Positions 5,589 through 43,653 of a stretch of DNA of 64,000 nt are shown here, in pieces. Position numbers and translations under genes: made by a program. The notes below the pieces were generated by a model, which was not told the origin of the DNA, searched no databases, and worked only from the letters and a program-made list of their open reading frames with translations. The stretch is from Sphingomonas suaedae. Its GTDB lineage: Bacteria > Pseudomonadota > Alphaproteobacteria > Sphingomonadales > Sphingomonadaceae. The number at the start of each line of letters is the position of its first letter. Position 1 is the first letter of the stretch. Where the stretch lies: NCBI RefSeq assembly GCF_007833215.1, contig NZ_CP042239.1, positions 1,364,001 to 1,428,000 on the forward strand, read 5' to 3'.

Positions 5589-5770
5589 CACCCCCTCCCT
5601 CTCCCCTTCAGGGGAGAGGGCCGGGGAGAGGGGGAGTGGGGCAATGCAGGATTCACCACTGCGATTACTGCCCCTCTCCCAACCAGTTCGGGGTGAACCG
5701 TGCCCCGCACGGTTCAGGATCGTCTGGGAGACGATCCGACCCCGAACTCCCCTGAAGGGGAGAGGGCTTT
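5589..5770 (+). repeat. REP-like GC hairpins between dnaK and dnaJ
   Basis: Two blocks of palindromes. The first pairs CCCTCTCCCCTTC with AGGGGAGAGGG (about 5597-5625). The second is a nested hairpin: CTCTCCC...AGTTCGGGGT pairs with ACCCCGAACT...GGGGAGAG, enclosing smaller stems GAACCGTGC/GCACGGTTC and TCGTCTGGGAGACGA. The same CCCTCTCCCC/GGGGAGAGGG unit recurs at about 8095-8125, so this is a dispersed repeat, not a dnaK-specific terminator. Its right edge supplies the GGGGAGAGG just upstream of the dnaJ start. Confidence 0.75.
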
Positions 5771-5774
5771 TTGA

Positions 5775-6881
5775 ATGACCACCCAGACTGACTATTATGA
5801 ACTGCTAGGCTGTTCGCGCGATGCGGATGACGCGACGATCAAGTCGGCGTTTCGCAAGCTCGCGATCCAGTGCCACCCCGACAAACATGGCGGGTGCAAG
5901 CAGCAGGAAGCCAAGTTCAAGGCAATCAACGAAGCCTATGACGTCCTGAAGGACCCGCAGAAGCGCGCGGCCTATGACCGGTTCGGCCATGCCGGGCCGC
6001 AGGGCATGGGTGGCGGCGGTCAGGGCTTTGACGGCTTTGCCGATATCTTCGAATCCATGTTTGGCGAGTTCATGGGCGGTGGCGGACGGGGCGGCCAGAC
6101 CCGGCGCGGCGCGGACCTGCGCTATGACATGGAAATCACGCTGGAAGACGCCTTTCACGGCAAGCAGACCGACATCACCATCGACGTGTCTGGCCCGTGC
6201 GAGCCATGCGGAGGCACCGGCGCCTCGCCGGGGACGATGGCCAAGAGCTGTGCCACCTGTCGCGGCCATGGCAAGGTGCGCGCGCAGCAGGGCTTTTTCG
6301 TGGTCGAGCGGACCTGTCCCTCCTGCCATGGCGCGGGACAGACGATCGCCGATCCGTGCCGCAACTGTCGCGGCGAGGGGCGCGTCGACAAGACGGTGAC
6401 GCTGGCGGTGAATGTGCCGCCCGGCGTGGACGAAGGCACGCGCATCCGCCTGTCCGGCCAGGGCGAGGCCGGCGCGCGCGGTGCCCCTCCGGGCGACCTC
6501 TATATCTTCATCCATATCCGGCCGCATTCGCTGTTCGAACGCGAAGGCACGACGCTGTTCGCGCGCGCGCCGATCAGCTTCACGACGGCTGCGCTGGGCG
6601 GCGAGATCGAAATTCCCGGACCTGATGGCGAGGTCCACCGCATCCCCCTCCATCCCGGCACCCAGAGCGGGCGCGAGGTGCGCCATCGCGGCGCGGGTAT
6701 GCCCGTGCTGCAGGGCCGTGGACGCGGCGACCTGGTCGTGCGGATCGAGGTGGAAATCCCGACCAAACTGACCTGCGAGCAGCGCGAATTGCTCGAACAG
6801 TTCCGCGCGCTCGAAACGGGCGAGGAATGCCCGGTGTCGACAGGGTTCTTCGACAAGCTGAAAAAGGCGGTTGGCGGCTGA
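5775..6881 (+). CDS. dnaJ: Co-chaperone DnaJ (Hsp40)
   Basis: A 368-residue type I Hsp40. The N-terminal J domain has CHPDKHGG (the HPD motif that triggers DnaK ATPase); then comes a Gly/Phe-rich linker (GMGGGGQGFDGF). Four zinc-binding repeats follow: CEPCGGTG, CATCRGHG, CPSCHGAG and CRNCRGEG. A C-terminal substrate domain completes the fold (GDLYIFIHIRPHSLFEREG). The ATG at 5775 lies 9 bp after GGGGAGAGGGC, contributed by the REP-like repeat. Confidence 0.97.
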   Translation: MTTQTDYYELLGCSRDADDATIKSAFRKLAIQCHPDKHGGCKQQEAKFKAINEAYDVLKDPQKRAAYDRFGHAGPQGMGGGGQGFDGFADIFESMFGEFMGGGGRGGQTRRGADLRYDMEITLEDAFHGKQTDITIDVSGPCEPCGGTGASPGTMAKSCATCRGHGKVRAQQGFFVVERTCPSCHGAGQTIADPCRNCRGEGRVDKTVTLAVNVPPGVDEGTRIRLSGQGEAGARGAPPGDLYIFIHIRPHSLFEREGTTLFARAPISFTTAALGGEIEIPGPDGEVHRIPLHPGTQSGREVRHRGAGMPVLQGRGRGDLVVRIEVEIPTKLTCEQRELLEQFRALETGEECPVSTGFFDKLKKAVGG

Positions 6882-8149: not shown

Positions 8150-8890
8150 AACCAAAAGGGGGCCGACGTTTCCGTCAGCCCCCCGGTGTCGCCACCCGCT
8201 CGCTTGCCCATCCGGGAGACGGGCGCGCTGCGGCGGCGGCAGGCACGGTTCCGCTAACCGGCAAGGGATGCGGAGCCATGCGTTCCAGCGTCCGGCGTGC
8301 GGCCGCTGGCCGGTCACCGGGACGGGCGCGGCTCCGGAGAGCCGCCAACCCGCCTCGATGTCCTTGCGATCCTTCGCGCCTTGCGGCGTTCCGGTATCGC
8401 GGTCCGGTCATCACTGCGGCACGATCCCCAAGGGGTCGTTTCGCTCGATGGCCTCGCGCCGATCCTGTCGCCCCGAAGGGTTGACGGTGTTCGTCGCGGC
8501 TGTGGTTGCATCTTCCGAACATGCCCGAGGGCGATGCTCCTCCGCTGCAACCCGCTCCACCCGGTCCGAAGACGGGTTTTGCGTCCAAGGCTTCCGGTCC
8601 GAACCGCTGCCCGAAGGCATCGGCCCCTGCCCTTCCGCCCGTCATCCCCGGCGCTAGACCGGAGGATGCCGTCGGACGCCTGTCCGTTTCGTCGCCGCCA
8701 AACCGATGCGAACATCGAAATCGCGGTTTCCCGGGGTGGCGTCCCCGTCCCGTCCTGCGCGGTTTCCCGAAGGCACCATCGCAGGGGAGTCCGTGACAAG
8801 CAGTTGATTTCGCTTTGGTTTCCCGCTGCTTCCTCATCTGCCTGCCTGACGATGCTGTCACGACTTGCGAGTCGGACGAAGCGCTGAATG
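8150..8890 (-). ncRNA. Candidate large structured RNA, no convincing protein on either strand
   Basis: None of the open frames here looks like a protein: they are rich in Arg/Gly/Pro and poor in hydrophobic runs. The minus strand has a high density of short stable hairpins. Examples are CGCC-GCAA-GGCG with a GNRA loop (8377-8388), ACGACCCC-TT-GGGG (about 8421-8438), GCGGCT/AGCCGC (8328-8345), GCC-CTCG-GGC (8523-8532) and CCGGT/ACCGG near 8310. It ends in a minus-strand intrinsic terminator at 8154-8184. I found no RNase P RNA or tmRNA hallmark such as GAGGAAAGTC, a T-arm or a CCA end. The RNA assignment is inference; the hairpins and terminator are directly visible. Confidence 0.4.
8154..8184 (-). 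terminator. Intrinsic terminator, minus strand
   Basis: Read on the minus strand, GGGGGC-TGACGG-AAAC-GTCGG-CCCCC forms a 10-bp stem with one mismatch and a 4-nt loop, followed directly by TTTTGGTTTC. No protein gene on the minus strand ends here, so it must close an unrecognised transcript coming from about 8900. Confidence 0.7.
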
Positions 8891-8915
8891 CACGTTACCA
8901 TCTGTGGATAACGTG
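8891..8915. promoter_or_regulatory. Perfect DnaA box inside a 7-bp inverted repeat
   Basis: CACGTTA and TAACGTG (8891-8897, 8909-8915) form a perfect inverted repeat. The minus strand between and across the right arm reads TTATCCACA, identical to the E. coli consensus DnaA box. It lies 17 bp beyond the end of the cupin gene and just upstream of the candidate RNA at 8150-8890. A single box does not make an origin; it could be a DnaA-responsive regulatory site. Confidence 0.45.
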
Positions 8916-8931
8916 GATCGCGGGAGTGGTT

Positions 8932-9366
8932 TCAGCTTTCGGGCGGGGACCAGTCGGGCGGGGCCAGTTCGAACCCGGCAAAGTCGAAGCCGGGGACGAC
9001 GATACAGCTGACCAATGCCCAGCCGCGATGCGCGTCCGCAGCCTGCCAGCGAGTCGCGGGAACGCGCGCCTGGGGCATGTAGCCAGCGGCGACGTCGCCG
9101 CCAAGCGGGATCGTGACTGGATTGGCGTCCGCCGCATCGCCAATCTTCAAATCGAGCGGCGCGCCGGCGTGCCACAGCCATAGTTCGTCGGCATCGACGC
9201 GGTGCCAGTGCGACTGCTGGCCCTGTTCGAGCAGGAACAGGATCGCGGTGCCGGGGGACCGCCCGCCTGCGACCAATGGCGGCGCGCGCCAGGTTTCCTT
9301 GTACCAGCCACCCTCCGGGTGCGGGGCGAGACCGAGCGTGGCGATGAGCGTTCGTGCTTCCTGCAT
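8932..9366 (-). CDS. Cupin_5 (DUF985) family protein
   Basis: The 144-residue product shows the family signature LGLAPHPEGGWYKETWR, followed by the cupin strands FLLEQGQQSHWHRVDADELWLWHAG with His residues that could bind a metal, and a C-terminal WALVSCIVVPGFDFAGFELA. Proteins of this family are small beta-barrels of unknown substrate. Start chosen at ATG 9366 because upstream frame extension would cross the promoter region of the divergent glycine-zipper gene. Confidence 0.85.
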   Translation of the reverse strand: MQEARTLIATLGLAPHPEGGWYKETWRAPPLVAGGRSPGTAILFLLEQGQQSHWHRVDADELWLWHAGAPLDLKIGDAADANPVTIPLGGDVAAGYMPQARVPATRWQAADAHRGWALVSCIVVPGFDFAGFELAPPDWSPPES

Positions 9367-24181: not shown

Positions 24182-24257
24182 GCCGGTTTAGCTCAGCTGG
24201 TAGAGCAGCGGTTTTGTAAACCGAAGGTCGCGGGTTCGATTCCTGCAACCGGCACCA
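24182..24257 (+). tRNA. tRNA-Thr, anticodon TGT, integration site of the element
   Basis: The 76-nt cloverleaf has acceptor GCCGGTT/AACCGGC, D arm GCTC...GAGC, anticodon loop TTTGTAA within GGTT/AACC (anticodon TGT), T arm GCGGG-TTCGATT-CCTGC and CCA at 24255-24257. The serine recombinase frame on the other strand reads through the whole 3' part of this tRNA. Confidence 0.96.
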
Positions 24258-25779
24258 TCTTCTCCCTTCCCCCGGACAAATCCGATAAAAGCGTGAAGGG
24301 AGAGGCGGTTACGGCGGTTCTAAACCCGGTTCCGCGCAGATATTGCAGGTTGTCGGCGAAGGCGAGCTTCAGAACGATTCGTTTGTAGGCAAAATTGCCG
24401 GAAACCCATATTTTATGCGGGTTTGCGAGGAACGTCATGGCGGTTCTAAATGCCGCGTCAAAATCCTTCGGCGTCCGGCCTGATTTCGACAGGCTTTCGC
24501 GAAGCTCGGCCTTGCGGACCTCCAGCCCTTGGATGCGGCTTTCATAGGCTTTGATGAGCGTTGGGCTTTCGGCGTCCATCACGCGGTCGATAAGCTGGGT
24601 GACATTGCCCTCGATCTGACGGATTTCAGCTTCCCAGCCCTTCTTGCGGGATTTGATCCCGTCGATGCGGATATTCCAAAGTTTGCGGAACACCTCATAG
24701 GCTAGCACGACCATATCCTGCGTCGGCCTCATGTCCTGTAAGATGGCCTCGAACTCGCCCTCGATCCGGTCGCGCGGAACGGCCTTGCCGTATTCGGAGC
24801 AATCTTTGCTGGGGCAGTGATAATAGGCGTAGTGCTTGTTGCGGCCCTTTGCCCAATAGCTGGTCAGGCGCGTATCGCAGCAACCGCAGGTGACGAACCC
24901 GCGCAGCGCAAAATCTTCACCCAGATTCTTGCGACCCGGCACCTTGGCCGTGCCTTTGAGCCGATCCTGAATCTTGCGGAATGTTTCGAAGCTGATCAAC
25001 GCCTCGTGCTGCGCGGGGCGCAGCGGGACATTCCAGCGTGCGACCTCGATATGGCCTGAGTAGAGAACCTGATTGAGCATATCATGGACTCGCTGGCCGT
25101 GGACGTCGCCGCGATAGGTGCGCGGATAATCCGGCTGGCTTTCAAGGAACCGCTGCACCTCGGCCTGTGTCGCGAAACGACCTGAGGCGAACCCCTGCAA
25201 CGCTTCGCGCACGATTGAGGCCATCGGCTCATGCGGCACGAGCAGCTTGTTCTTGCCCCGGCTGTCCGTCACTTCGGCGAACTTGTAGCCGATTGGCGGC
25301 TGGAACACCCAAAAGCCGTCAAGGCAGCGCGAACGCATCCGGTTCAGCGTCTGCTCGGCGTTCTTCTCGCGCTGGTGCTGATAGGAACTGGCGAGGACAT
25401 TCTCGACGAAGCGGCCATCGCTGTCCTCGCGGAACTGGTGCGAGGGCGATACCATGATCGCGCCGGCGCGTTTGACGGCGGCGCGGAGTTGCTGGTGCGC
25501 GACGACATCGCGGGCAAGGCGCGACAGGTCGTCTATGATTACGAAGTAGGTTTGCTTCTGGCCACGCAGAAATTTGAGCATGGCCTTCATTTCAGGCCGG
25601 TCGGATTTCGCGCCGGTATAATCGTCGCGGAAGACGCGAACGACGAAATAGTCGTTGCGCTCTGCATATTCGCGGCAGCGGGTTTCCTGACTGTCGAGGC
25701 CATGGCCATCGGTCTTTTGTTTGGGGTCGGACACACGGCAGTAGATCACCGCCTGTTGTCCGTTGATCGCGTTGGTCAT
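24193..25779 (-). CDS. Large serine recombinase (integrase of the element)
   Basis: 528 residues. Resolvase domain: VIYCRVSDPKQ (catalytic Ser), then FVIIDDLSRLARD. A recombinase domain follows (NQVLYSGHIEVARW), then a zinc ribbon (TCGCCDTRL and HCPSKDC) and a C-terminal coiled-coil/basic region. The last 21 residues (from MVPVAGIEPATF) are simply the antisense translation of tRNA-Thr and flanking DNA, so the C terminus is created by integration and would change after excision. It overlaps the upstream 85-residue gene by 4 bp, indicating one transcript. Confidence 0.93.
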   Translation of the reverse strand: MTNAINGQQAVIYCRVSDPKQKTDGHGLDSQETRCREYAERNDYFVVRVFRDDYTGAKSDRPEMKAMLKFLRGQKQTYFVIIDDLSRLARDVVAHQQLRAAVKRAGAIMVSPSHQFREDSDGRFVENVLASSYQHQREKNAEQTLNRMRSRCLDGFWVFQPPIGYKFAEVTDSRGKNKLLVPHEPMASIVREALQGFASGRFATQAEVQRFLESQPDYPRTYRGDVHGQRVHDMLNQVLYSGHIEVARWNVPLRPAQHEALISFETFRKIQDRLKGTAKVPGRKNLGEDFALRGFVTCGCCDTRLTSYWAKGRNKHYAYYHCPSKDCSEYGKAVPRDRIEGEFEAILQDMRPTQDMVVLAYEVFRKLWNIRIDGIKSRKKGWEAEIRQIEGNVTQLIDRVMDAESPTLIKAYESRIQGLEVRKAELRESLSKSGRTPKDFDAAFRTAMTFLANPHKIWVSGNFAYKRIVLKLAFADNLQYLRGTGFRTAVTASPFTLLSDLSGGREKMVPVAGIEPATFGLQNRCSTS

Positions 25780-26274: not shown

Positions 26275-27480
26275 ATGCAAACCGTATACCTCGATACGTC
26301 TGACTATTCCCGCTTCGGCGACGTATTGCGAGGCAAGGGCGACCCGCAGACAGAACGCATTTTTGACCAGCTCATCCGCCTGAAGGAGGGGGGAGTAGCG
26401 CAGTTCGCCTATTCTATGCCCGTGCTGAGCGAGTTACTCCAATATGACGAAGATCATGCCGAGACCACGACGCACAAGGCTCAGGCCGTGGAGATGCTAT
26501 GCGGCAGCAACGCCTTTATCTGGCCGGGACGCCTGATCGCGTGGGAGGTTTCGGTCGCAGCCGCAAAGAACGACCTGTCTGAACACCCATTGCTCGCATC
26601 ACCGCTCAGTGAAGCTGCGAACTGGTTTCCCAACGTTGAAGGTGCTCTGGACGATTTGAAGGGCGGATTTCAACGAACTCTAAACGAGGCTCTCGCCGAC
26701 ATCACGCCCGTTAACCGAAAGCAGCGGCGAACGATCGAAGCCCATGTTCGCAAACTGAGCATGACCAAGATGGTCAATGCGGCTGCACCGGAATTCGCAG
26801 ACAAATACGGCCTGAAAGTTTCAGATGTCCAACGCTCGCTGATTGCCGTTCTTGAGGATAAGATATCGCCGTCGGAAGGCGCAAAGCGCCTCTTTTCGGC
26901 GATAGCCACGCCCACGACCTTCATTCACACCTATTTCAAAGGCTACGACGGGAAGAAGGATTTCCCCGCATGGATGTCCAGTCTTGGGGCGAAGTTACAA
27001 TCAGGCCTAATGGAAGGCAGGGAGAAGTTAAGCGCGATAGACATATCGCTACTGTCACCGGATTTTATCCGGTCAGGCTTCGAGGAAACAGCCCCAGAAT
27101 ATGGGTCAATGGTGCTGCGCCTCGCATCATCCGAAGCGACTGAATTTGGTTTGGAGCAAGCTGTCATTGACCTTTACGCCCATCGCCAAGACCTCGCCAA
27201 TGAAGTGTCATGCTGGCGAAATTTTACCCGCTTTATTCCAGCCTTTATGATGGCCAATCTTGGCCTGCGGGGCGATGGCTATGCGCCGGAGCGCAGCGCG
27301 GGCGGCGATATCATACACTCGTTTTATCTGCCGTATTGCGATCTCTGGCGCGGCGACCGCCGCTTTTCGCATATATTGAAGCAAGCACTGCCGGATCAGG
27401 CACACAGGATCGTCTCACGACTGGCGGATTTGCCGAAGTTGGTTGAAGCGGGTGCTAGCGATAGCCCTCCACATAGCTGA
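26275..27480 (+). CDS. PIN-like domain protein, candidate nuclease
   Basis: 401 residues. The N terminus VYLDTSDYSRFGD has the first PIN-type Asp after a beta strand. An acidic Glu lies in VLSELLQYDED, and the C-terminal GGDIIHSFYLPYCDLWRGDRRFSHIL has the spaced Asp residues of the H-x-x-YLPYCD...DR pattern seen in long PIN-like proteins. That makes it a probable metal-dependent ribonuclease. The middle helical part is unassigned. It is alone on the plus strand, convergent with the coupling protein gene and overlapping it by 26 bp. No antitoxin-like partner is visible. Confidence 0.7.
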   Translation: MQTVYLDTSDYSRFGDVLRGKGDPQTERIFDQLIRLKEGGVAQFAYSMPVLSELLQYDEDHAETTTHKAQAVEMLCGSNAFIWPGRLIAWEVSVAAAKNDLSEHPLLASPLSEAANWFPNVEGALDDLKGGFQRTLNEALADITPVNRKQRRTIEAHVRKLSMTKMVNAAAPEFADKYGLKVSDVQRSLIAVLEDKISPSEGAKRLFSAIATPTTFIHTYFKGYDGKKDFPAWMSSLGAKLQSGLMEGREKLSAIDISLLSPDFIRSGFEETAPEYGSMVLRLASSEATEFGLEQAVIDLYAHRQDLANEVSCWRNFTRFIPAFMMANLGLRGDGYAPERSAGGDIIHSFYLPYCDLWRGDRRFSHILKQALPDQAHRIVSRLADLPKLVEAGASDSPPHS

Positions 27481-29062
27481 TCCCGTCGCGATATTGCGGG
27501 TAGTGCGCCAGTTCCGGCCTGCGCTCTGTGATGATGCGGCGCTCCGTGCTGCCAAACGTGCCGGGGAGCCGAACGCGGTCCAGCGGCGGATGATAAGGGT
27601 TGGGCAGCCATAGGCCATTGAGGCTCCTGGTCGAGTAATAGGGATACTTGTCGGCAAGGATCGGCGGCAAATCGAGGCCTGAGATGAAACTGATCATCTT
27701 GCCATCGCCCATGCCGATGATCTCGTCGGGGGTCATCAGCAGCCGGGACATCTTGGTCCGCGCATTGGCGGCGTCACGATAGTGGTGATAGTCGATGGCG
27801 GCCTTCGCGGGATCGCCGCCGGACATGAAGTTGCGCATTGCTTCGTTCTGCAAGCGCCGCGCCGCGTCGGTCTGGAGCTTGTCGGTATATTCGAGGGTCT
27901 CGCTGCCCAGCATATCGGACAGCAATCGCGCGGTCGGATAATCGCGCACGCCGAAGAAACAGCGCCATTGCGCCGAACCGATGAATCCTGTGATGGCTTC
28001 CCGCCCGAAGTTTCTAGAAATCTGGTCAACATCTTGAAAAACAGCGATTGTTTTCACACCTTCGCCGCGACCGATGGTGAAGGCTGCGAGCAATTCTTCG
28101 AATCTGCCCATCTGACCGGCCTCATCGACCAATAGCGTCAGGCGTCGGGCTTGCGGCGCTCTTGCCTTGTAGATCATCGCGACGACGAACATCACGCGCA
28201 GCACGGACGCCCATTGCGCGATGTAGCGGCGCGGCACCATCAGGAACAGGCTGGTGAGTTGCTCGGAGGTCAGGTCGCGCAGCGAGAAGTCGGGATATTC
28301 CAGCGAAGCGGAAAGAACCGGATCGTTGAGAAACGACAGGTTGGCCTTGATGGTCGATAATATCAGCCCGAACTCGTTCGAGGTCGAATGGCGCTGCGCC
28401 TGCCACATATCGGCGGCTGCGGCGCGAACATCGTGAAACGGGGAGTGATCCATCGCATCGAGCTGAAAGGCCCATGCTTCCGCGTCCGAGCGGATCGACT
28501 GGATCGTGCGCCAGAGCATTGGAAAGGTGACATGGCCGCATCGCTCGACTAGCGATTTGAGCAGCGCGGTGATCCATTCCCGCGCCTTCTTCTCGAAATG
28601 ATGGCCGTGATTGCCGCCGCTGCCGACCAGCGGGATCATGCACGCGGCAAGGTCCGCGCAATCGCCATGAAAATTAGGATTGTCGAAGGTCAGGAGATCG
28701 AGCGGGTTGCAGCGATGACTCGCCATCCCGTGCAGGCCGGTGGGGTTCCACAGATAGACGAAGGCGTTCCAGCGCAGAAAGCTGCTGATCGTGACGGCAG
28801 CAAGTTCGCCTTTCGGATCGCAGACCAGCAACGGATGCATACCGCCCCGAATGATCGTTTCGACCAGCCAGTCGCGCCCTTTGCCCGCGCCCGATCCGGC
28901 AATGACGATGCCGGGGCTGTCGGAACGCAGGAACATCTGCCGGTTGCCCTTGTAACCGACGAACAGGCCGTCCTTGTCGAACAGGCCAGCGGACTCGATG
29001 TCGCGCTCATTGGCCCATCGCGCCATCCCGTGGCGCAAGTCTTCGCGTTTGGGATCGATCAT
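27455..29062 (-). CDS. TraG/VirD4-like conjugal coupling protein ATPase
   Basis: 535 residues with Walker A VIAGSGAGKGRD, Walker B LTLLVDEAGQMG, and the family segments HPLLVCDPKGELAA and FQDVDQISRNFGREAITGF. It lacks the long N-terminal membrane anchor of VirD4, so it may be soluble or use the 43-residue membrane protein encoded just upstream as an anchor. It would pass the relaxase-DNA complex to a type IV secretion channel, which this element does not encode. Confidence 0.9.
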   Translation of the reverse strand: MIDPKREDLRHGMARWANERDIESAGLFDKDGLFVGYKGNRQMFLRSDSPGIVIAGSGAGKGRDWLVETIIRGGMHPLLVCDPKGELAAVTISSFLRWNAFVYLWNPTGLHGMASHRCNPLDLLTFDNPNFHGDCADLAACMIPLVGSGGNHGHHFEKKAREWITALLKSLVERCGHVTFPMLWRTIQSIRSDAEAWAFQLDAMDHSPFHDVRAAAADMWQAQRHSTSNEFGLILSTIKANLSFLNDPVLSASLEYPDFSLRDLTSEQLTSLFLMVPRRYIAQWASVLRVMFVVAMIYKARAPQARRLTLLVDEAGQMGRFEELLAAFTIGRGEGVKTIAVFQDVDQISRNFGREAITGFIGSAQWRCFFGVRDYPTARLLSDMLGSETLEYTDKLQTDAARRLQNEAMRNFMSGGDPAKAAIDYHHYRDAANARTKMSRLLMTPDEIIGMGDGKMISFISGLDLPPILADKYPYYSTRSLNGLWLPNPYHPPLDRVRLPGTFGSTERRIITERRPELAHYPQYRDGISYVEGYR

Positions 29063-29463: not shown

Positions 29464-29584
29464 ATCCGCCCTGATCCCATAACTCAGGTGAGACTGGACG
29501 AAACCACAGCAATTTCTGACGTCGGTCGTTCGATTGTGCTAATATCCGGGCTTGGTCAACCTAGGGTAACACTGGTCGATTTTG

Positions 29585-31366
29585 ATGGGTCTTCTTGCTA
29601 ACGACGCGATCACGCAGCTCTCGTTTTCGATATACGAGAACAGGGGAGTTTTTGCGCTGTTGCTTGGCTCCGGGCTATCGCGAGCTGCCGAAATTCCAAC
29701 AGGCTGGGAAATTACGCTTGATTTGGTCCGGCGTGTCGGGGAGGCACGCGGCGCGGAGGCTCAGACTGATTGGGCGCAGTGGTATCGCGAAGAGACGGGC
29801 GAGGAACCGAACTATTCCACTCTGCTGGAGGAATTGGCCTCGTCTCCGGAAGAACGACGTTCGATCCTCCACAGCTATATCGAGCCTACAGAGCAGGATC
29901 GAGAAGAGGGCCGAAAGATACCGACGGCGGCGCACCGAGCTGTCGCGCAGTTGGTCCGCACAGGACATTTACGCGTCATCATCACAACCAACTTTGATCG
30001 CCTGATGGAGAACGCCCTGCGCGAAGTTGGTGTTGAACCAACTATCGTCGCCTCGATTGATGCCTTGCACGGCGCGGAGCCGATTACGCATAGCACGTGC
30101 TACATCCTCAAACTTCATGGCGACTACAAGGACGCTCGCATCCTCAACACAGATGAGGAACTGCGGGGTTATCCGGTGCAATATGACGCCTTACTCGATC
30201 GAATTTTCGACGAATTTGGTTTGGTTGTTTGTGGTTGGTCTGGGGAGTGGGATCATGCCCTTCGCGCAGCGATGCTCCGCACACCAAACAGGCGCTACTC
30301 GCTGTTCTGGGCTACCCGTGGCAGGATTGGCTCAGGCGCTCAGGAGTTGATTGATCATCGTCGGGCGCGGGTGATCGAGATCGGCGACGCGGATACATTC
30401 TTCACTTCGGTTGCTCAGCGCGTCGAGACGCTCGAAAAATCACGCCGTCAAAACCCGCGCAGCATCGAGCTGTTAGTCGGGACGACCAAGCGCTACCTCG
30501 CCAAGCCCGAATATCGCATCCAGTTGGATGAGTTGTTCGTGGACGAGTGCAAGCGCCTGATTGAGGTTCTAGACTCTGGTGATTTCGCGCCTCATGGATC
30601 AATCACATCTGCCGACATTGTGTCACGCGTACAGCGATATGAGGCCGCCACCGAAGCGCTGGCGCTGATGGCCGGCACGCTTGGTCGATGGGGTGATGGC
30701 ACGGAACTGCCGCTCGTCCTGGACCTCTTGCAAACGATTAGATCGCACGCTGGGCAAATAGGAAACGGGCTGACCGCTTGGATAGAGCTACGGTCTTACC
30801 CCGCGGTATTGATTTTCACGAGCTACGGAATTGGTTTGACGCGTGCGTCGCGCTGGTCCGCGCTGCACGGACTTCTAACGGCGTCCATGCCTAAGCCCTA
30901 TCGGGAATCAGAACCAGCGGTGAGGGTGCTGTTCCTTTCGGCTTGGGCGGGGGGCGAGAACAATTTCTGGCAGCACTTGGAGGGGCTGGATCGCCGGAAA
31001 ACCGCGCTAAGCGATCATTTGCGCGATGTTTTCGAGAATTGGTCAAAGAGTTTCGTGGGAATGGTGCCTGACTTCGAACTGCTGTTTGAGCGTTTTGAAG
31101 TCCTTGCGTCCATCGCGTCTCTAGATACGGTGGAAACCGAAGCACTCAAACAAACACTTGCTGATGCGTCGAGACGAGACTTCGTCTGGATGCCAGTCGG
31201 TCGGTCCGCGTGGCATACCGACACGCGGGAGCGTCTATTTAAGGAGCTTGAATCCGAGCCGATCAGGCAGGCGCTTCTTGAAGCCGGATTTGCACGCGGC
31301 AGCTCTGAGCACTACGCTTCGGTGCTCACCAACTATAACCGAATGGCGAGCCGAATTTCGTGGTGA
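29585..31366 (+). CDS. SIR2-domain protein, probable NAD-degrading defence effector
   Basis: 593 residues. The N-terminal 280 residues carry SIR2 motifs: LLLGSGLSRAAEIPTGWEI (nucleotide-binding GSGLS), VIITTNFDRLMENAL (TTNFD), YILKLHGDYKD with the catalytic His, and LVVCGWSGEWD. The remaining 300 residues are helical and have no known domain. SIR2 domains fused to long C-terminal regions act in anti-phage systems by depleting NAD; here no ThsA/TIR, Argonaute or STAND partner is adjacent. Start could be TTG 29582 or ATG 29585; neither has a good ribosome site. Confidence 0.82.
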   Translation: MGLLANDAITQLSFSIYENRGVFALLLGSGLSRAAEIPTGWEITLDLVRRVGEARGAEAQTDWAQWYREETGEEPNYSTLLEELASSPEERRSILHSYIEPTEQDREEGRKIPTAAHRAVAQLVRTGHLRVIITTNFDRLMENALREVGVEPTIVASIDALHGAEPITHSTCYILKLHGDYKDARILNTDEELRGYPVQYDALLDRIFDEFGLVVCGWSGEWDHALRAAMLRTPNRRYSLFWATRGRIGSGAQELIDHRRARVIEIGDADTFFTSVAQRVETLEKSRRQNPRSIELLVGTTKRYLAKPEYRIQLDELFVDECKRLIEVLDSGDFAPHGSITSADIVSRVQRYEAATEALALMAGTLGRWGDGTELPLVLDLLQTIRSHAGQIGNGLTAWIELRSYPAVLIFTSYGIGLTRASRWSALHGLLTASMPKPYRESEPAVRVLFLSAWAGGENNFWQHLEGLDRRKTALSDHLRDVFENWSKSFVGMVPDFELLFERFEVLASIASLDTVETEALKQTLADASRRDFVWMPVGRSAWHTDTRERLFKELESEPIRQALLEAGFARGSSEHYASVLTNYNRMASRISW

Positions 31367-33713: not shown

Positions 33714-34376
33714 CTACGCAGCTTCCCTCATTTCGTTTGCGAGGCGGGCGCTGGCGGTGCGGTGGTGGCCGGGGTCGAGTTCGATGCCGAGCCAGTCGCG
33801 GGTTTGCTGCTTTGCTGCCAGCAGCGACGAACCTGAGCCGCAAAAGGGATCGAGCACGATGCCACCTTTAGGGCAGAAGCTTTCGATCAGCGGTATAAGC
33901 GCGGCGACAGGCTTCTGGGTAGGATGCAATCGGTTGCCTGTGTAAGGCATATCAATCACATCGCCGATGACTCCTAGAGGTAGCACATTTGGCCGACCCT
34001 TGGCCAGCAAATAGGCGCTTTCGTGGTGGCGAGCGAGATAACCCCGCGACGACGCATAGCGTTTGCGGAACACGATGTGGCCGAGGACGTGGAATCCTGC
34101 TTTCGTCCAAGCGGCTGCGAAACGGTCGATGCTGTTCCAGCCGTAGAAGCTGACGGCACACCCTCCCGGTTTGAGCAGTCGATACATCTCTGCAAACGCA
34201 GGCTCGATCCAGTCGGCATTGTCATCGTTCAGCACGGTCCTGCCGCAGCGGTCGCGATATCGCGTGACATAGGGCGGATCGGTCAGGATCATATCGACGC
34301 TTGCGCCGGGGAGCGTTGGCATCACCTTTAAGCAATCGCCGTGGAGGATGCTATTGCGGGGAAGAATGAGGGTCAT
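33714..34376 (-). CDS. DNA methyltransferase (N4/N6, DPPY type), orphan
   Basis: 220 residues. DMILTDPPYVTRYRD (motif IV, DPPY) precedes VLDPFCGSGSSLLAA (motif I, SAM binding), the beta-class order, with IELDPGHH following. The target-recognition part between is short. No restriction gene is fused; the nearest nuclease-like gene (DUF2726 at 35495) is frameshifted. It could protect the element from host restriction. It overlaps the 71-residue gene upstream by 4 bp. Confidence 0.9.
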   Translation of the reverse strand: MTLILPRNSILHGDCLKVMPTLPGASVDMILTDPPYVTRYRDRCGRTVLNDDNADWIEPAFAEMYRLLKPGGCAVSFYGWNSIDRFAAAWTKAGFHVLGHIVFRKRYASSRGYLARHHESAYLLAKGRPNVLPLGVIGDVIDMPYTGNRLHPTQKPVAALIPLIESFCPKGGIVLDPFCGSGSSLLAAKQQTRDWLGIELDPGHHRTASARLANEMREAA

Positions 34377-34816: not shown

Positions 34817-35383
34817 TCACCACAACCGTTCGGCAAACTCGCGTTCTTCAACGCCGACCGCGTCAAGATAAATCGCCTTGGTTTGGATCGAGGCATGGCC
34901 CATCCAGCGTTGGATAAGGTTGGGCGGGATCGACGCCGATGCGCAGCGCATCCCGAATGCGTGCCTGAGCGCCTTTGGGCAGCGAACAGGTCCAGCGATA
35001 CGAGCATCCTCCATCGCCGCTGTAACGTGCCGCCATGCGGTCGAACGATGCCACTGCCATAGCTGCCCGTTGTCAAGCACAGGCAGCGCCAGCAGCTCGG
35101 TCACGAAGGGCGGCGGCAGCGGGACTCGTCTGAACGTCAGTTTGCGCCTCTTGAGGGTGCGGATCACGACTGCGCTGGCCTCGATGTCGATATGCTCACG
35201 ACAAACCGCCAGCGCCTCCGATACGCGACAGCCGGTATAGGACAGGAAATAGCACAGCGCGCGCGCTTCTGAGGGCAAGCGATTGGCTGCGTTCAAGAAC
35301 CGCTGGCGTTCGGCCTCGTTGAGATATTTACGGCGGCCCTGCTGGTCATAGGGTTGCCAGTCGCCGCTCCAGATAAACGACAT
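34817..35383 (-). CDS. Tyrosine recombinase/integrase
   Basis: 188 residues from MSFIWSGDWQPYD. Catalytic boxes: first Arg in YTGCRVSEAL, Lys in IRTLKRRK, box II CPKALRHAFG, in which Lys replaces the usual first His, and GHASIQTKAIYLDAV with the nucleophile Tyr. The core-binding N-terminal domain is very short. A TTG at 35434 would extend it, but then the palindromic site at 35404-35430 would be inside the gene; I prefer 35383, leaving the site 21 bp upstream. It may act on that site and its partner at 38337. Confidence 0.85.
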   Translation of the reverse strand: MSFIWSGDWQPYDQQGRRKYLNEAERQRFLNAANRLPSEARALCYFLSYTGCRVSEALAVCREHIDIEASAVVIRTLKRRKLTFRRVPLPPPFVTELLALPVLDNGQLWQWHRSTAWRHVTAAMEDARIAGPVRCPKALRHAFGMRCASASIPPNLIQRWMGHASIQTKAIYLDAVGVEEREFAERLW

Positions 35384-35403
35384 CGGTACGATGATCTCCG
35401 ATT

Positions 35404-35430
35404 CGCAACAGAATCGGCAATAGTGTTGCA
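35404..35430. repeat. Palindromic site A beside the tyrosine recombinase
   Basis: GCAACAG-N9-TAGTGTTGCA, with outer arms GCAACA/TGTTGC separated by 13 nt. The core TCGGCAA is the reverse complement of the core in site B (38337-38363). Arms and size (11-6-11) resemble tyrosine-recombinase crossover sites, but an operator is also possible. Confidence 0.6.
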
Positions 35431-35494
35431 GCAAAAATTTTGACGCCGGACGATCCGCTGGCGCGCGATCCCGCCAACAGGCATAATTGCAGGT

Positions 35495-36431
35495 ATGCTA
35501 AAGCGATTGTCGAATTTGGGTGAGCAAAAGGTTCACGATGAGATTGTAGGTGCAGCGGAGGAGTATCAAGCTCACATCTACCGCAAGGTGCGTATCGCGG
35601 ATGTCGTTGACATAAGCAGGCTGTCGGGGCCGGGCCTGAGCCGCTACGCCTTGCAGGCCCATTTCGATTTCTGCGTCTGTAACGAAAGCCACGTTCCGGC
35701 ATTCGCTATCGAATATGATGGCGGCGGACATAGCGCGATCAACGATGCCAAGAAGGACGAGATCGCTCTACAAGCTGGATTGGCATTGTTCAGGATTGAC
35801 GAGCGGCTGCTGAACCGCACCAGAGGTGGTGTGACCTTCCTCCAATATCTCGTTCACACCTATTTTCTCGGCAACGCGTTCCTTGAAATGCAGGAGAAGG
35901 GGCAGCTTGATCCTACCGAACCCTTTATGATGAGCGGTTTCCTTAAGAAGGATGCGAGGCACATATTCGACTCTGACTTCAATTACTCAGGGGTGGCCCG
36001 AGGGCGCCTCACCAAAATCATGACGAAGGCCGGTGTACCCGACGGGGCAAATATCTCATCTGTGGATTTCCGAAGCGATGTTCGGAAAGGCGGATTCCAG
36101 CTTTATCGCCTTCGCCAGCATTCCGGTCGGCGGGCAATTCGTGTTCGGGCGCGCGCGACTGGATATCGGGACGCCCAGCCTTGGCCGACTTGGTGAACTT
36201 CCGTTCGGGTGGAGTGCGCTAGGAGATTACTGCGAAGGAATGGTGCTTGAGGATTTGTGCGACGAGCTGGAACTCTACTTTGCGGCAGGCCAACACGTTC
36301 TGAGAACGAGGGAGGAGATCGAAAGCGAGGTCGAACATCTTCAAACGCTCGGCTACGAGCCGCTGAGGTCTTGCGGCGGCAAAGATACCTACCTGATGAA
36401 TTGCGGCTTCCCCAAAACGTCAACTGGATGA
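35495..36431 (+). pseudogene. DUF2726 nuclease-like gene with a frameshift
   Basis: The first part (35495 to about 36080) carries the DUF2726 core FAIEYDGGGHSAINDAKKDE, a restriction-endonuclease-like motif (E-YDG-H...KKDE). Between about 36033 and 36095 the protein-like signal moves to the +1 frame and continues as SSFIAFASIPVGGQFVFGRA...LEDLCDELELYFAAGQ to the stop at 36431. Restored length is about 312 residues. The original frame instead gives an Arg-rich tail. Either a one-base insertion has inactivated it or a sequencing error is present. It lies between palindromic sites A and B. Confidence 0.65.
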
Positions 36432-36515
36432 AGCAAGCCCGCCGTTGCAGCCGAGCGCTGGCGCTCCGTCCCGATGATCGTCAGAATCAAATGAAGATCG
36501 CCAGAGCCAGCCCGA

Positions 36516-38141
36516 TCAGATATTCATGAAGCTCAGACGAACGTCATACTCCTGTGCGAGTAGGCTTATTGCCTCGTTGCGGAGCGTGATCTTACTGAAA
36601 AAAGGAATGTTAAAAGAACCATCGGCACGCGGAGTATCGAGGATCAAAAATTCGACGATCCATCGGCGATCATCCGCGATCGTGTCGGCAAGCTGCTGTC
36701 GAATACCATCTCCATAAAGACCCTGCACCATGGCGAGAAGACCGTCCCATGCCGCAGGAAACCTCTTGAGCTGTTGAGCCGAGTTTGATCCCTGTTTGAA
36801 AAAATGACTCAACACGCTGGATCGGCGAGAGCTCTTCTTAACGTGGAGGAAACGCTTGCCGGGAACGTCAAGCAAATCGCATACTTCGAAGTTAGACCGC
36901 TGGATATCCGGAATGTCCACTAGTTGGCGGTCTAACAGACAAACACCGAGATGATTCGCAAGCCGCCGGTTGTAGGATTCCTCCGACTCTAGCGTTCCAG
37001 TGCGTCCCTTTGCGTCGTAGGTTTTGATCATTGGGAACGCGCCGTGTTCCCAATGATGGCAGGTTTGCTGGAATCGCTCTTCAATGCCGTTCTTGAAAAG
37101 CTGATCAACCTGATACCATTCACCCTCGTTGATGGCAAAGCGCGAGTTATCGACTACAATTGAACCTATAAGAGACTGACGGATGCTCCATTTCTGATTC
37201 CGCATGGCGTCTTGATGGATCGAACCAATTTTATGTTCACGCAGCATCTTCGGCGTCAGCGTAGCGAGTTCGTCGCCAAGTGCTTCGATATAATTACTCA
37301 AGAGCAACTCGGGGTGCGTGCCCGGATGCCCCGGGCCGTGAAACTTATAGCCGACGCTATCGCTGTCATTTGTGGTCGGTAAGCCTAGCTCAAACTCCCC
37401 AGCTTCATCCTTGATGCTTTGACAAGCTTGGTCGTCAAGACGGCCGATCAAGCGGCGATCCATGACGGGGCTGACAAAATCAATGACGCTGAAGCTCGTA
37501 TCTTTGTAGGCCTCGGCGCCGAATGCCGTCAGTGCATCGACGGCAAGCTCGGGCAAATCCGGTATGCTAAATTCGCCCGTGATCTTGAGGGATTTTGCGC
37601 CTGTCACGCTGTCTGCTGTAGCCTCATCACGCGTTGTGCCACTAATCTTCCGTACCAAGTCGAGTGCGTCGTCCAATCCAAAAGAAGTGAAATCTCGTTG
37701 GAAAGGCGAAAGTGAGACGCCGCGCAAGGCATCTCCGAGGTTCGCTCTTTCCAAACGTTTGAGCTTTTTGTCATTGAGAAGGTTGATTGCAACACGAAGT
37801 CCGAAGTCCCCTTCAATGTTGCTTTCCTCGACGAGCATCCAGCCATGGGCATAGGTCGAAATGAATATGCGGCCTTCTGTTCTGAACATCAAAAGGGCGC
37901 AGGCGGAGCATGATGCAATATTACCTCCGAAGGGAAAATGCCTCCTGAGTTCCAAAACCCACGTCGGGGTAAAAAAATCACCAGCGAAAACATAGAGCCG
38001 TGCGCCATCGGCAAAATCGGCAATATCCAATATTTGCGTTCCGTCGCGACCAACGCGGTCACGTGCTTTTTCCGTCAGTAGTCGATCAAAATCGTCTATG
38101 TCGGGCTTCGCTAGAAAAAGCGTATGGGTTTGCTTAGCCAT
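36516..38141 (-). CDS. TIGR04141 / DUF6119 family sporadically distributed protein
   Basis: 541 residues. The diagnostic C-terminal part is clear: KRFLHVKKSSRRSSVLSHFFKQG followed by SAQQLKRFPAAWDG and WIVEFLILDTPR. The N terminus TLFLAKPDIDDFDRLL is also typical. The family is patchily spread among bacteria and often found on elements and in defence-rich regions; its activity is not established. It is convergent with the DUF2726 gene and inside the segment bracketed by sites A and B. Confidence 0.82.
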   Translation of the reverse strand: MAKQTHTLFLAKPDIDDFDRLLTEKARDRVGRDGTQILDIADFADGARLYVFAGDFFTPTWVLELRRHFPFGGNIASCSACALLMFRTEGRIFISTYAHGWMLVEESNIEGDFGLRVAINLLNDKKLKRLERANLGDALRGVSLSPFQRDFTSFGLDDALDLVRKISGTTRDEATADSVTGAKSLKITGEFSIPDLPELAVDALTAFGAEAYKDTSFSVIDFVSPVMDRRLIGRLDDQACQSIKDEAGEFELGLPTTNDSDSVGYKFHGPGHPGTHPELLLSNYIEALGDELATLTPKMLREHKIGSIHQDAMRNQKWSIRQSLIGSIVVDNSRFAINEGEWYQVDQLFKNGIEERFQQTCHHWEHGAFPMIKTYDAKGRTGTLESEESYNRRLANHLGVCLLDRQLVDIPDIQRSNFEVCDLLDVPGKRFLHVKKSSRRSSVLSHFFKQGSNSAQQLKRFPAAWDGLLAMVQGLYGDGIRQQLADTIADDRRWIVEFLILDTPRADGSFNIPFFSKITLRNEAISLLAQEYDVRLSFMNI

Positions 38142-38336
38142 GCCTCCCCCGAGACTTATCTAGAGAAGAGCTTAACTAGGGGCGTTGCGGCTTGCAACTC
38201 ACGCCTTGACCAGCCCGGCCATCGCGCGCCTGACAACATCTCGGATCAACTCCGAACGCCGCAGTCGGGGCGGCGGCAGGTAGCAGCCCGCGACCGCAGA
38301 CAAGGCGATAACGTATTGATATCGCAAGAATACGTG

Positions 38337-38363
38337 TGCAACAGTTTTGCCGATAGTGTTGCA
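38337..38363. repeat. Palindromic site B
   Basis: TGCAACA-N13-TGTTGCA, with the same outer layout as site A: GCAACAG-N9-TAGTGTTGCA. Its core TTGCCGAT equals the reverse complement of the site A core. It lies 38 bp before the 38402 gene and about 195 bp upstream of the TIGR04141 start. Confidence 0.6.
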
Positions 38364-38401
38364 CGAGGGTAGATTCCTCCCGCTGATGCCGGGAGGGTTC
38401 A

Positions 38402-38833
38402 ATGTTTCGTTCCCATGCTCGTTTGTTGTTGTCGGTCGCCGCGCTGGCCGTTGCCGCCGCGCCAAATGGCGCGTTGACACAAAACCGCCCCGCAAGTGTC
38501 GCCGATGTGAGCATCCCGCTATCGGATGCCCGCAATATCGAACCCAATTCCGTCCGCTTTTCAGCAGCACAATTCACGCGCTCCGGTCCCGCTGTGGTGC
38601 TGTTCGGCGTTACCAAGGCCAATTGGCCGAAACTCAAGGCGGCGATCCAACAGGCAGTGTATGACGGCTACCGGGTGCAGGCCGTCTTCATCGGCCCCGC
38701 CAATGTGCAACCCGCTATCGAAATCTACGCCAAGGGTCAGCACGTCACGGTGAACGGGATCAACCCCAATACGATCAGCGGCGCGGAACTGACGCGCCTG
38801 ATCCGCGACATCAATCGCGAATATTACGGCTGA
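38402..38833 (+). CDS. Exported hypothetical protein
   Basis: 143 residues with a signal peptide (MFRSHARLLLSVAALAVAAAPNGA), then a compact domain with VVLFGVTKANWPKLKAAIQQ and VQAVFIGPANVQPAIEIYAKG. No family was recognised. GGGAGGG lies 6 bp upstream of the ATG. Site B lies between it and its likely promoter. It is followed by a 53-residue zinc-ribbon protein on the same strand. Confidence 0.7.
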   Translation: MFRSHARLLLSVAALAVAAAPNGALTQNRPASVADVSIPLSDARNIEPNSVRFSAAQFTRSGPAVVLFGVTKANWPKLKAAIQQAVYDGYRVQAVFIGPANVQPAIEIYAKGQHVTVNGINPNTISGAELTRLIRDINREYYG

Positions 38834-41725: not shown

Positions 41726-43273
41726 TTAGAAGAAATCAGGGCCGGAATCGATATCCGGCTGCGGCGTGTCGCGATCCATGTTCCGACGAAGCCATTCGGC
41801 GCGGTCGTTGAAGTTCGTCGATAGTTCACGCTCACGCTGTGCCGTGTCGTTCAGGTCGGGGCGTTGCTGCTGCTCGAACAGCCATGACAGGCGATCCTTG
41901 TCCGGCTCCGTCGCGATGTGCCGGGTGGTCGCTCTCTCATCGGGCAATACGTCGTGCCGCTGCGCGATCTGCTGCTGTTCCTCCAGCCAGCGGCGGCGAT
42001 CATCTTGCTGCGCACGTTCCTTGTCGCGTAGCCATTGCGCCCGCTCGTCGCGCTGGGCGGTTTTGTCATCGTTGAGAAGCTGGGCAAGATCGCGGTGCAG
42101 TTCGGCAACACGATCATGATGCGTATTGCGGATATCGAGAATCCGCTGCTGTAGCTGCTGGCGCTCGGCAAGCTGCACTGCGACCAGCCGTTGCCGCTGA
42201 TCGCGGTCGCGCTGGAGCGATGCCCATGCCGCACGTTCGTTCTCGTCGCGCAGTTCGTTGTAGCGACCCGTGATGCGGTCGAGCAGGCCAGCAAGCCCAC
42301 GCCGCATCCGATCTGCGCGTTCGCGCTGTTCCTCGTCCTGCCGCGCCGCAAGCGCGGTATCGAGCCGTTGCCGTTCGGCGGCATGGTTAACCTTCATCGC
42401 CAGCCGCTCGGCCTCGACCGGACCAAGCTGCGCGGCGCGTTGCTGTTCCGCTTCGCCGATCACCCGTTGCAGCGTCGGCGCGATATGCTGGGAGATATAG
42501 GCACGCGCGCCCTCGACGCTGCGCAGCGCATCGGCATTACCAAGCCGTTCGCGCACTTCCTTGGTCTTGCGGTCGAGCAAGCGGGAAAGCGCGATCACCT
42601 GTCCGCGCCATGTCATCGCAATATGGCTGCGGCGCTCGCCTCTGGCGAGATACAGGCCACGCTCCTCCAATGCCTGCTCGAATGCTTCGCGACTGTCGGA
42701 GAGCGCCCATGCTTCCTTCGCCATGAGCTTCAGACGGCCCGCGTCGACATCCTCACGCTTGGCCTGCTGATACAAGGTGAGATCGAAGTTGCGCGGATCA
42801 CGCTGGGCCTTGTCGATATAGCCTGCGGGCAGTTTCCATCCTTGCTCCAGATAGATGTCTTTCGAAATCGCCATCAGCTTTTGCTTGTAGAAGGGAAGCG
42901 GGATCGCGGTCATGCTCTCCGCATCGATGCGCGACCACACCGCATGGGCGTGCCGCCGTCCTTCCTTCTCGTGAAAGATAACGACGCGCGGCTGGTCCTT
43001 GAGGCCGACCGACAGCTCGATATCATCGATGGCCTTCTCGAACACGGAGACATCGACGCTCTGGTCCTGTGGCGGGGATAGTGATACCGAGAACAAGGTC
43101 TGGCGGGATTTGACGCCCTGACCGATGGCCTGCTGTTCGCGCATCGCGCCCATGACATCATCGGCCATGAAGCCGCGCACCTCATGCGGTTCGATCTGGT
43201 CGTTGTCACGGTCGTTGAGCAGATGCCGCGCCAGCGCAGGCGGGTTCCCCCGCGTCGATGCTTTGATGATCAT
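41726..43273 (-). CDS. Relaxase / mobilization nuclease (VirD2-like)
   Basis: 515 residues from MIIKASTRGNPPALARHLLN, the usual start of this family. The relaxase core has HEKEGRRHAHAVWSRID, with the His triad motif H...HAH that binds the metal. The C-terminal 250 residues are a charged coiled coil rich in Gln/Arg. It nicks the element at oriT and is carried into the recipient. It overlaps mobC by 4 bp, so the two are coupled. Confidence 0.9.
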   Translation of the reverse strand: MIIKASTRGNPPALARHLLNDRDNDQIEPHEVRGFMADDVMGAMREQQAIGQGVKSRQTLFSVSLSPPQDQSVDVSVFEKAIDDIELSVGLKDQPRVVIFHEKEGRRHAHAVWSRIDAESMTAIPLPFYKQKLMAISKDIYLEQGWKLPAGYIDKAQRDPRNFDLTLYQQAKREDVDAGRLKLMAKEAWALSDSREAFEQALEERGLYLARGERRSHIAMTWRGQVIALSRLLDRKTKEVRERLGNADALRSVEGARAYISQHIAPTLQRVIGEAEQQRAAQLGPVEAERLAMKVNHAAERQRLDTALAARQDEEQRERADRMRRGLAGLLDRITGRYNELRDENERAAWASLQRDRDQRQRLVAVQLAERQQLQQRILDIRNTHHDRVAELHRDLAQLLNDDKTAQRDERAQWLRDKERAQQDDRRRWLEEQQQIAQRHDVLPDERATTRHIATEPDKDRLSWLFEQQQRPDLNDTAQRERELSTNFNDRAEWLRRNMDRDTPQPDIDSGPDFF

Positions 43274-43653
43274 GGCGAATCGCCTCCTGCGTCGAGGCCG
43301 AGCGCCTTCATCAGCATCCGGCGCATCTCGGCAATCTCGCGGCACGCCTGCATCAATGCGGCGGCGACTTCGGGCGTGACGGGAAGCGATCCACTATTCG
43401 CGGCCTTGGCGAGCTGGTTGACGTTCGATGCCAGCCGCAAATTGCCGAGCATCGCGAGAAGGTGAGAGAGAATGGCGTGATCGCGCACGGGAGCCTTGCC
43501 CCTTGTGCGGGGCGGCGGCGTGTTCGGATCGAACAGCCGCCATTTGATGTATGCGCCCAGCGTCATGCCTGCCGCGTCACGCTCAAGGCGTGCGCGTTCG
43601 TCGCGCGACAGCCGCAGGGATAGCGGCGCTTCGCGCTTTTTCTTCTCAGGCAT
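43270..43653 (-). CDS. mobC: MobC-like mobilization accessory protein
   Basis: 127 residues: basic start MPEKKKREAPLSLRLSRDER with a ribbon-helix-helix-like LRLSRDERARLERDAAGMTLGAYIKWRLF, then a helical tail with LLAMLGNLRLASNVNQLAKAAN, typical of MobC/relaxosome proteins. It would bind oriT and help the relaxase open the DNA. The candidate oriT lies just upstream. Confidence 0.85.
   Translation of the reverse strand: MPEKKKREAPLSLRLSRDERARLERDAAGMTLGAYIKWRLFDPNTPPPRTRGKAPVRDHAILSHLLAMLGNLRLASNVNQLAKAANSGSLPVTPEVAAALMQACREIAEMRRMLMKALGLDAGGDSP

Follow-up and report, generated by a model that had tools for sequence, protein, structure and literature searches.

A stretch of 64,000 nucleotides from Sphingomonas suaedae (contig NZ_CP042239.1, positions 1,364,001 to 1,428,000 of the forward strand), hereafter the window, was analysed around a small tyrosine recombinase gene and two nearby sites, A and B, which are imperfect palindromes of 25-27 nt on either side of a DUF2726 gene and a TIGR04141/DUF6119 gene. 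The original prediction, made from the letters of this DNA, had placed two such sites here and proposed that they bracket a cassette which is inverted or exchanged by the neighbouring recombinase; both sites were found at the positions it gave. The features at the locus, in coordinates of the window, are as follows.

34817..35383, minus strand: small tyrosine recombinase of 188 aa, a probable DNA invertase (PF00589, conserved residues, homologues beside inverted site pairs)
35405..35429, no strand: site A (proximal), 9-nt arm, 7-nt spacer and 9-nt arm, GCAACAGAA-TCGGCAA-TAGTGTTGC
35430..38337, no strand: predicted invertible segment, 2,908 bp between A and B, drawn from the site pair and from relatives laid out alike
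35495..36196, plus strand: first frame of the DUF2726 cargo gene (PF10881, E 7.1e-10), 233 codons, apparently frameshifted after about codon 190
36033..36431, plus strand: second frame, probably the displaced 3' part of the DUF2726 gene, with weak similarity to a 289-aa Methylocella relative
36516..38141, minus strand: TIGR04141/DUF6119 cargo gene, open frame of 541 aa (PF19614, E 1.3e-122; TIGR04141, E 6e-121)
38338..38362, no strand: site B (distal), 9-nt arm, 7-nt spacer and 9-nt arm, GCAACAGTT-TTGCCGA-TAGTGTTGC
38402..38833, plus strand: distal outer gene for a small protein whose N terminus is signal-peptide-like by eye; homologues stand in the same position at locus L170 (32%) and in genome G345 (50%)

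The end of site A lies 21 bp from the ATG of the recombinase gene, the same distance as first reported, and site B lies 39 bp from the ATG of the 38402 gene. The spacer of B (TTGCCGA) is the exact reverse complement of the spacer of A (TCGGCAA), and the two sites are therefore inverted by spacer; their identity in direct orientation is also high because the arms are palindromic. The 25-mers of A and B share 20 identities in direct and 21 in inverted orientation, consistent with the 21 and 22 of 27 counted earlier. The 8-nt core of the original prediction kept its inverted match but not its size, and is better described as a 7-nt spacer between 9-nt arms. When the window was searched for GCAACAG-N9-TAGTGTTGCA with up to 3 mismatches, three matches were obtained: A and B, each without a mismatch, and the opposite strand of site B with 3 mismatches (chance mean, 0.07). 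Across the whole 4,154,291-base genome the pattern GCAACA-N13-TGTTGC occurred at 0 mismatches only at A and B (backward control, 0), so that within this genome the exact arm pattern is not spread over many unlinked promoters; a motif at many such promoters of related elements had been named as a sign against a cassette. A looser arm pattern was matched in 64 of 396 genomes of the order, compared with 16 for the backward control by our own count; most of the single matches in these 64 genomes are known as pattern matches only, and among the matches listed, recombinase-adjacent pairs with a common inverted spacer were present in genomes G004 (two), G029, G070 and G076.

Spacer agreement was then measured across homologues of the recombinase, which were taken from whole genomes, named genome contigs (80 of at least 458 relatives) and viral contigs (80 of 87). 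An earlier survey (76 of 132 loci) had made the spacer match a condition and was no test of it. Here sites were called by their arms only, with at least 9 of ten arm positions required and upstream candidates taken within 8 kb; 17 of the 80 viral loci were used (L090-L106), as in the earlier survey, out of L090-L111 that were inspected, and the plasmid loci L253-L260 stood outside this arm-only test. Among 93 non-redundant recombinases, no two more than 90% identical, 39 had a proximal arm site, and at least one upstream arm candidate was present for 29 of these 39. A partner with a 7/7 inverted spacer was found in 27 of the 29 testable loci, the window included, and a 7/7 direct match in none. 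The candidates separated sharply: of 45 in total, 27 matched at 7/7 inverted, 17 matched at three positions or fewer and one fell between. Fifteen distinct spacers occurred across the matched loci; when the distal spacers were permuted among these 27, a mean of 2.9 matches was obtained and at most 10 in 2,000 permutations, and four controls with the anchor shifted by 2 or 3 kb in either direction yielded zero matches. Two loci about 15 kb apart in genome G861 (L268 and L269) have the spacer pairs TGCACAA/TTGTGCA and TTCACAA/TTGTGAA, which differ by one base that is altered identically on both sites of the pair. One of these two recombinases was also seen to have an internal TAG. The arrangement by which an inverton is recognised, a recombinase gene near an inverted pair with matching spacer, was found at these 27 loci of the arm-only test, the window among them, and the homologous recombinases with matched inverted sites span several alphaproteobacterial families and mobile elements.

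The recombinase itself belongs to the tyrosine recombinase (Phage_integrase) superfamily both by domain (PF00589, E 6.5e-15 for the longer form of the open reading frame, ORF) and by catalytic residues. Tyrosine recombinases have the catalytic residues R...K...H/KxxR...H...Y; R140, H163 and Y172 were invariant and R53, K78 and K79 nearly invariant in a 26-row alignment, and K137 was nearly invariant in an 11-row alignment. Its best solved-structure matches were XerC-like, XerA and XerD chains. The nearest recombinase in the collections searched was 60% identical; no second copy was present in the window genome at E 0.001, no homologue in phage records at E 1e-15, and an initial search of viral contigs with this one protein gave no match. 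The protein scored 34.2 and 33.1 bits on the tyrosine-invertase models (cut-offs, 222 and 221), which leaves it short of the FimB/FimE-type family models, and 30.5 bits on the integron integrase model TIGR02249 (cut-off, 265).

A segment in both orientations was seen in a homologous subfamily. The flanks of locus L217 (a Sphingosinicella metagenome-assembled genome) and locus L239 (Sphingobium indicum BiD32) align over 4.4 kb at 93.3% and over 9.7 kb at 94.3%, and the 0.9 kb between their palindromic sites, which bears the recombinase, lies in opposite orientation in the two, with breakpoints at the sites. The two recombinases are 43.8% identical at 89 fourfold sites, compared with 82.7% of 1,477 fourfold sites (filtered) or 86.4% of 2,495 (all matched) for the flank ORFs. 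In non-inverted pairs the corresponding recombinase and flank identities were 96.7 and 96.6 (L213/L258), 82.0 and 78.4 (L232/L237), and 87.6 and 92.1 (L210/L063); in L224/L235, likewise without inversion, they were 64.3 and 78.0, so a moderate excess of divergence can arise where no flip has occurred. For L217/L239, replacement of the whole segment in opposite orientation is the simplest reading, and the high synonymous divergence of the segment suggests cassette exchange.

What lies between the sites differs among the closest relatives. Four rows of the earlier survey that looked spurious by arm sequence (L186, L200, L071 and L234) were excluded before a tree was built, which held 65 distinct rows after L268 and L269 were added and 9 identical rows removed. 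The window falls within a supported set of 18 rows (98/93), inside which branching is largely unresolved; 14 of the 18 have a short segment, 93-107 bp long (107 bp in L175), and four are filled (the window, L170, L172 and L177). The cargo of L172, between sites at 5751 and 9942, consists of HamA (E 1.8e-148) and HamB (E 0), which together make it a Hachiman system, and a small ORF; in L177 the cargo comprises two proteins with RHS repeats, one bacterial-Ig protein and one of 159 aa that matched no family, and L170 carries one rare 406-aa protein, for which three other homologues were found. The window and L170 have the same spacer around different cargo, as do L172 and L177. For L174 no partner site was found, and its contig ends about 1.2 kb upstream. 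A separate filled set comprises L070, L072, L074, L075 and L077, one of them from an uncultured Kordiimonas; three cargo proteins of this set matched no NCBIfam family and three no Pfam family. Constant gene content and orientation between the sites would have spoken against the proposed cassette; the homologues vary in both.

Considered jointly, these results lead us to conclude, with a probability of about 0.78, that a mobilizable element carries a DNA-inversion cassette at the window locus. Its small tyrosine recombinase would bind both sites by their palindromic arms and exchange strands across the 7-nt spacer common to A and B; because the spacers of A and B face each other, the 2.9 kb between them would invert, a step for which the relatives give support. 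With starts only 21 and 39 bp from the sites, the outer genes should draw their transcription from the segment or its edges, and for the same reason a flip should give the invertase and the putatively secreted protein each other's promoter; to judge from the anatomy, the segment ends that drive the recombinase and the 38402 gene would be traded in the manner of an invertible promoter switch. A promoter-sized segment, as in 14 of the 18 subclade rows, would have become a cargo bay, occupied by a defence-like DUF2726/TIGR04141 pair here and by Hachiman in a relative, and cargo may be acquired when matching site pairs trade the entire segments that they enclose. The cassette of the original prediction, invertible or exchangeable and driven by the neighbouring recombinase, thus gains support from spacer covariation, from the flipped segment of L217/L239 and from differing cargo.

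The outer genes and the inner flanks of the sites were compared in the same loci. The ORF beside the distal site had a signal-peptide-like start by eye in 23 of 43 loci, and 18 of these 23 start 60 bp or less from the site or overlap it; within the 18-row subclade of the window the count was 11 of 18, and such starts are mostly missing from the phage group and from the five loci of the Kordiimonas type. A candidate motif for integration host factor (IHF), for which the consensus used was WATCAANNNNTTR, lies at the distal end of the window segment.

38309..38321, minus strand: IHF-like motif TATCAATACGTTA, 16 nt inside site B, 0 mismatches to the consensus, candidate only

With up to 1 mismatch, an IHF-like motif was present in 11 of 29 distal and 5 of 29 proximal inner flanks, and the distal control gave a mean of 2.2 and a maximum of 7 in 100 mononucleotide shuffles; IHF sites at the distal inner flanks are suggestive only. 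Several members of the window's subclade have the motif 15-18 nt inward of the distal site; in the remaining loci neither end shows it clearly, and the better match of L176 is proximal. A second inner motif was derived from the same loci and so provides no independent test, and 150 of 2,000 random 45-mers match it at 2 mismatches or fewer. The window genome has three HU/IHF-family proteins. These landmarks bear on L281, a locus of genome G301 and a relative of the window element with homologues of its coupling protein, methyltransferase, relaxase, 39063 and 38402 genes. Two inverted sites with the window's spacer lie 1.33 kb apart at L281:2152-3507 around a 230-aa ORF, no recombinase homologue was found in G301 at E 1e-6, and the inner flank with the IHF-like motif lies towards the methyltransferase, opposite to the window; the neighbourhood is also rearranged. 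L281 looks like a flipped relic without a recombinase, and by landmarks it is the only locus that looks flipped. Both orientations are seen in L217/L239, and the window locus was seen in one only. A STAND-type NTPase gene (3800-6877) adjoins the site pair of L281.

Several results weigh against an inversion cassette in the window. An inverted copy of the window locus was not found, in collections that held no close relative of it, and L217/L239 come from a subfamily with the recombinase inside the segment, unlike that of the window. A scan of 35300-38600 found no sigma-70-like promoter at the segment ends; its one match lies inside a gene (shuffled mean, 2.0). Where the IHF-like motif is clear it is always distal (L170, L171, L172, L175, L177, L178 and L185, and more weakly in the window), with no flip among these loci. 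A proximal site of the GCAAC type was not found for 54 of the 93 recombinases; for several of the 54, spacers match between arms of another sequence (TGAAC, GATAC and GTTAC types), the match itself having helped to locate the site, and others show no convincing pair. Nor was a convincing inverted pair seen for the Komagataeibacter and Shewanella plasmid homologues. Among close relatives whose segments are short (the phage group L092-L098, L076/L078 and L224/L226/L235) the orientation was the same by eye, with no inversion.

Much of the same evidence could be read with exchange in the leading role: the inverted pair would be a docking frame in which segments with the same spacer are swapped by double crossover, and inversion would be a by-product. 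Recombinase-mediated cassette exchange is the laboratory precedent for such a wholesale swap. Cargo does vary between equivalent sites (the window, L170, L172 and L177), with the same spacers around different cargo, and the recombinases of L217/L239 have diverged far more than their flanks, in contrast to the closer agreement in L213/L258, L232/L237 and L210/L063. However, L224/L235 show a smaller gap without inversion, the one clear case belongs to another subfamily than the window's, ordinary homologous recombination following inversion would give a similar picture, and no donor segment was identified; we hold this explanation as tentative, with the balance tilted against it. Marginally more tentative is the general proposal that a tyrosine invertase with two inverted sites may be a natural cassette-exchange machine, by which Sphingomonadaceae elements would swap spacer-matched segments, anti-phage systems included, each wired into an inversion switch. 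It is doubtful that inversion instead serves phase-variable defence, turning the cargo genes on and off or alternating between the two convergent genes, as inversion of the G segment of phage Mu alternates between genes. Convergence of the two genes would set a different gene beside each outer flank in each orientation, and the equivalent segment of L172 holds Hachiman; yet the gaps of 21 and 39 bp between the sites and the outer genes, both of which are directed outwards, leave scarcely any space for an inward promoter, and the DUF2726 gene of the window is apparently frameshifted. Moreover, the listed cargo ORFs of L170, L172 and L177 are all co-directional, with the first start about 200 bp inside the segment, so this cargo probably brings its own promoters.

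Two further explanations dispense with inversion. The palindromes might be a shared operator of the recombinase and the 38402 gene, the alternative that the original prediction had offered; they would then bind a repressor, without any recombination. They do stand directly upstream of both outer genes, and a palindrome is the usual shape of an operator, but an operator has no need of spacers that vary between loci and yet agree between the two sites of a pair, and then only as reverse complements; nor does it account for the flip of L217/L239 with breakpoints at the sites, and we consider it very improbable. Even less credence is given to resolution or dimer-control sites of the dif/pdif or plasmid multimer type that are inverted by chance. 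Homologues do occur near partition-type genes on two Komagataeibacter plasmids, where no convincing inverted pair was seen, but resolution requires direct sites, and the 27 inverted pairs among 29 testable loci stand against no exact direct pair. The DNA-inversion cassette is the reading retained below.

The surroundings of the cassette look like an integrative mobilizable element, with the following genes.

24193..25779, minus strand: large serine recombinase, the likely integrase of the element (PF00239 and PF13408)
27455..29062, minus strand: TraG/VirD4 coupling protein (PF02534)
33714..34376, minus strand: DNA methyltransferase beside the tyrosine recombinase, part of the element backbone (PF01555, PRK13699), with homologues in 6 of 14 loci compared (L170-L183)
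41726..43345, minus strand: MobA/VirD2-like relaxase (PF03432)
43270..43653, minus strand: MobC/NikA-like mobilisation protein (PF05713 above cut-off; PF21983 below cut-off)

Because the element has a large serine recombinase of its own, the tyrosine recombinase is probably unneeded for integration. In L170 and L175, too, the homologous tyrosine recombinase has homologues of this serine recombinase and of TraG nearby, and a search of plasmids for DNA similar to the window locus gave no match. Between the coupling protein gene and the cassette, at 29582-31366, a SIR2-domain protein is encoded that matches the PADLOC candidate defence model PDC-S65 (E 1.5e-225).

The two genes inside the segment are real and convergent, as first described (PF10881 for DUF2726; PF19614/TIGR04141). 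The first DUF2726 frame is 48% identical to the 289-aa Methylocella protein over residues 1-190 only, the frame at 36033-36431 is 22% identical to residues 182-278 of that relative (E 3.3e-4), and the gene appears to be split by a frameshift near 36064. A PADLOC search of the DUF2726 and TIGR04141 proteins returned 0 families. By association only, a TIGR04141 homologue sits inside a type I restriction-modification operon of Mameliella alba, and HEPN and TIR-domain genes lie near a DUF2726 homologue in Methylocella. No solved-structure relative of TIGR04141 was found by sequence at E 0.1, and the open PubMed Central (PMC) literature gave only one unrelated wheat paper for TIGR04141/DUF6119.

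As far as sequence allows a judgement, the system works like the tyrosine-recombinase inversion switches, and what is new in it would be an invertible cargo bay on a mobilizable element. Like integron cassettes and pdif modules, it combines a tyrosine recombinase with neighbouring recombination sites that enclose varying cargo; the integron or dif-module likeness of the original prediction was nonetheless not borne out. The window protein fails the integron-integrase models, a result that covers the integrase, with no search aimed at attI or attC, and in contrast to XerC/XerD sites the site pair is inverted and has a dedicated adjacent recombinase. The dif and pdif sites have XerC and XerD arms and a 6-nt spacer and are acted on by chromosomal XerC/XerD, whereas the present sites are set apart by palindromic GCAAC arms, a matched 7-nt spacer that varies between loci and the dedicated recombinase, as judged by these features with no alignment to a dif consensus. 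The closest comparison is with FimB/FimE and fimS of Escherichia coli, which share a small stand-alone tyrosine recombinase, inverted sites around what in many homologues is a promoter-sized segment, an outer gene for a surface or secreted protein and, in some loci here, an IHF-like site; in S. parapaucimobilis a homologue even stands beside a spore-coat-U/chaperone-usher pilus operon. Unlike FimB/FimE, the window protein scores below the invertase models and its sites are 25-nt palindromes with 7-nt spacers, and the segment, borne on a mobilizable element, encloses cargo of defence and other kinds. IHF, FimB and FimE are named as factors of the type 1 fimbrial switch (PMC11868660).

In Bacteroidales, invertible promoters control resistance genes (PMC8748976). 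Integrative conjugative elements are also reported to carry phase-variable loci that have putative resistance genes (PMC11868660); inverting DNA is likewise tied to accessory cargo there, partly on mobile elements, but the promoter inverts beside the cargo, whereas here the cargo lies within the inverting segment and varies between relatives. Type I restriction hsdS genes undergo inversions, for example by PsrA of Streptococcus pneumoniae (PMC7096588, PMC4948785), which is also tyrosine-recombinase inversion at a defence-related locus; those inversions run between hsdS genes, and here whole unrelated genes stand between two short dedicated sites. The serine invertase PinQ affects adsorption of phage T2 (PMC12529663) and so also links DNA inversion to phage defence, but it is a serine recombinase acting on a cryptic prophage segment, and the part of that report drawn on describes no defence system inside the inverting segment. 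The predominant functions of phase-variable loci are surface structures and restriction systems according to a review (PMC11868660), and a genome-wide survey found inversions in 0 of 4 Alphaproteobacteria examined (PMC5903667). By titles and abstract starts of the papers listed from the open PMC literature, neither a paper on the present system nor a report of defence systems inside an inverting segment was found. An inverting segment able to hold a complete defence system would link DNA inversion to defence-gene turnover, and matched spacers would make site specificity and possible exchange partners legible from sequence.

Some observations concern individual homologues. In L063 (SYK-6-like), a 301-aa recombinase frame at 8463-9365 continues through one of its own sites, at 8511-8535, and inversion would therefore alter the C terminus of the recombinase. 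The Shewanella plasmid pSXM33 (L253) has a distant recombinase homologue with no detectable inverted pair, and an abortive-infection-family gene ends about 1.1 kb upstream. The viral contigs L093 and L094 have a 102-bp segment of the same type beside an acyltransferase-like gene (PF01757, tested in L094), possibly a switchable surface modification by prophages. On a plasmid of Sphingomonas parapaucimobilis (L259:7880-8725), a recombinase homologue lies between inverted sites beside an EAL gene and the spore-coat-U/chaperone-usher pilus operon, and phase variation of this pilus operon is possible.

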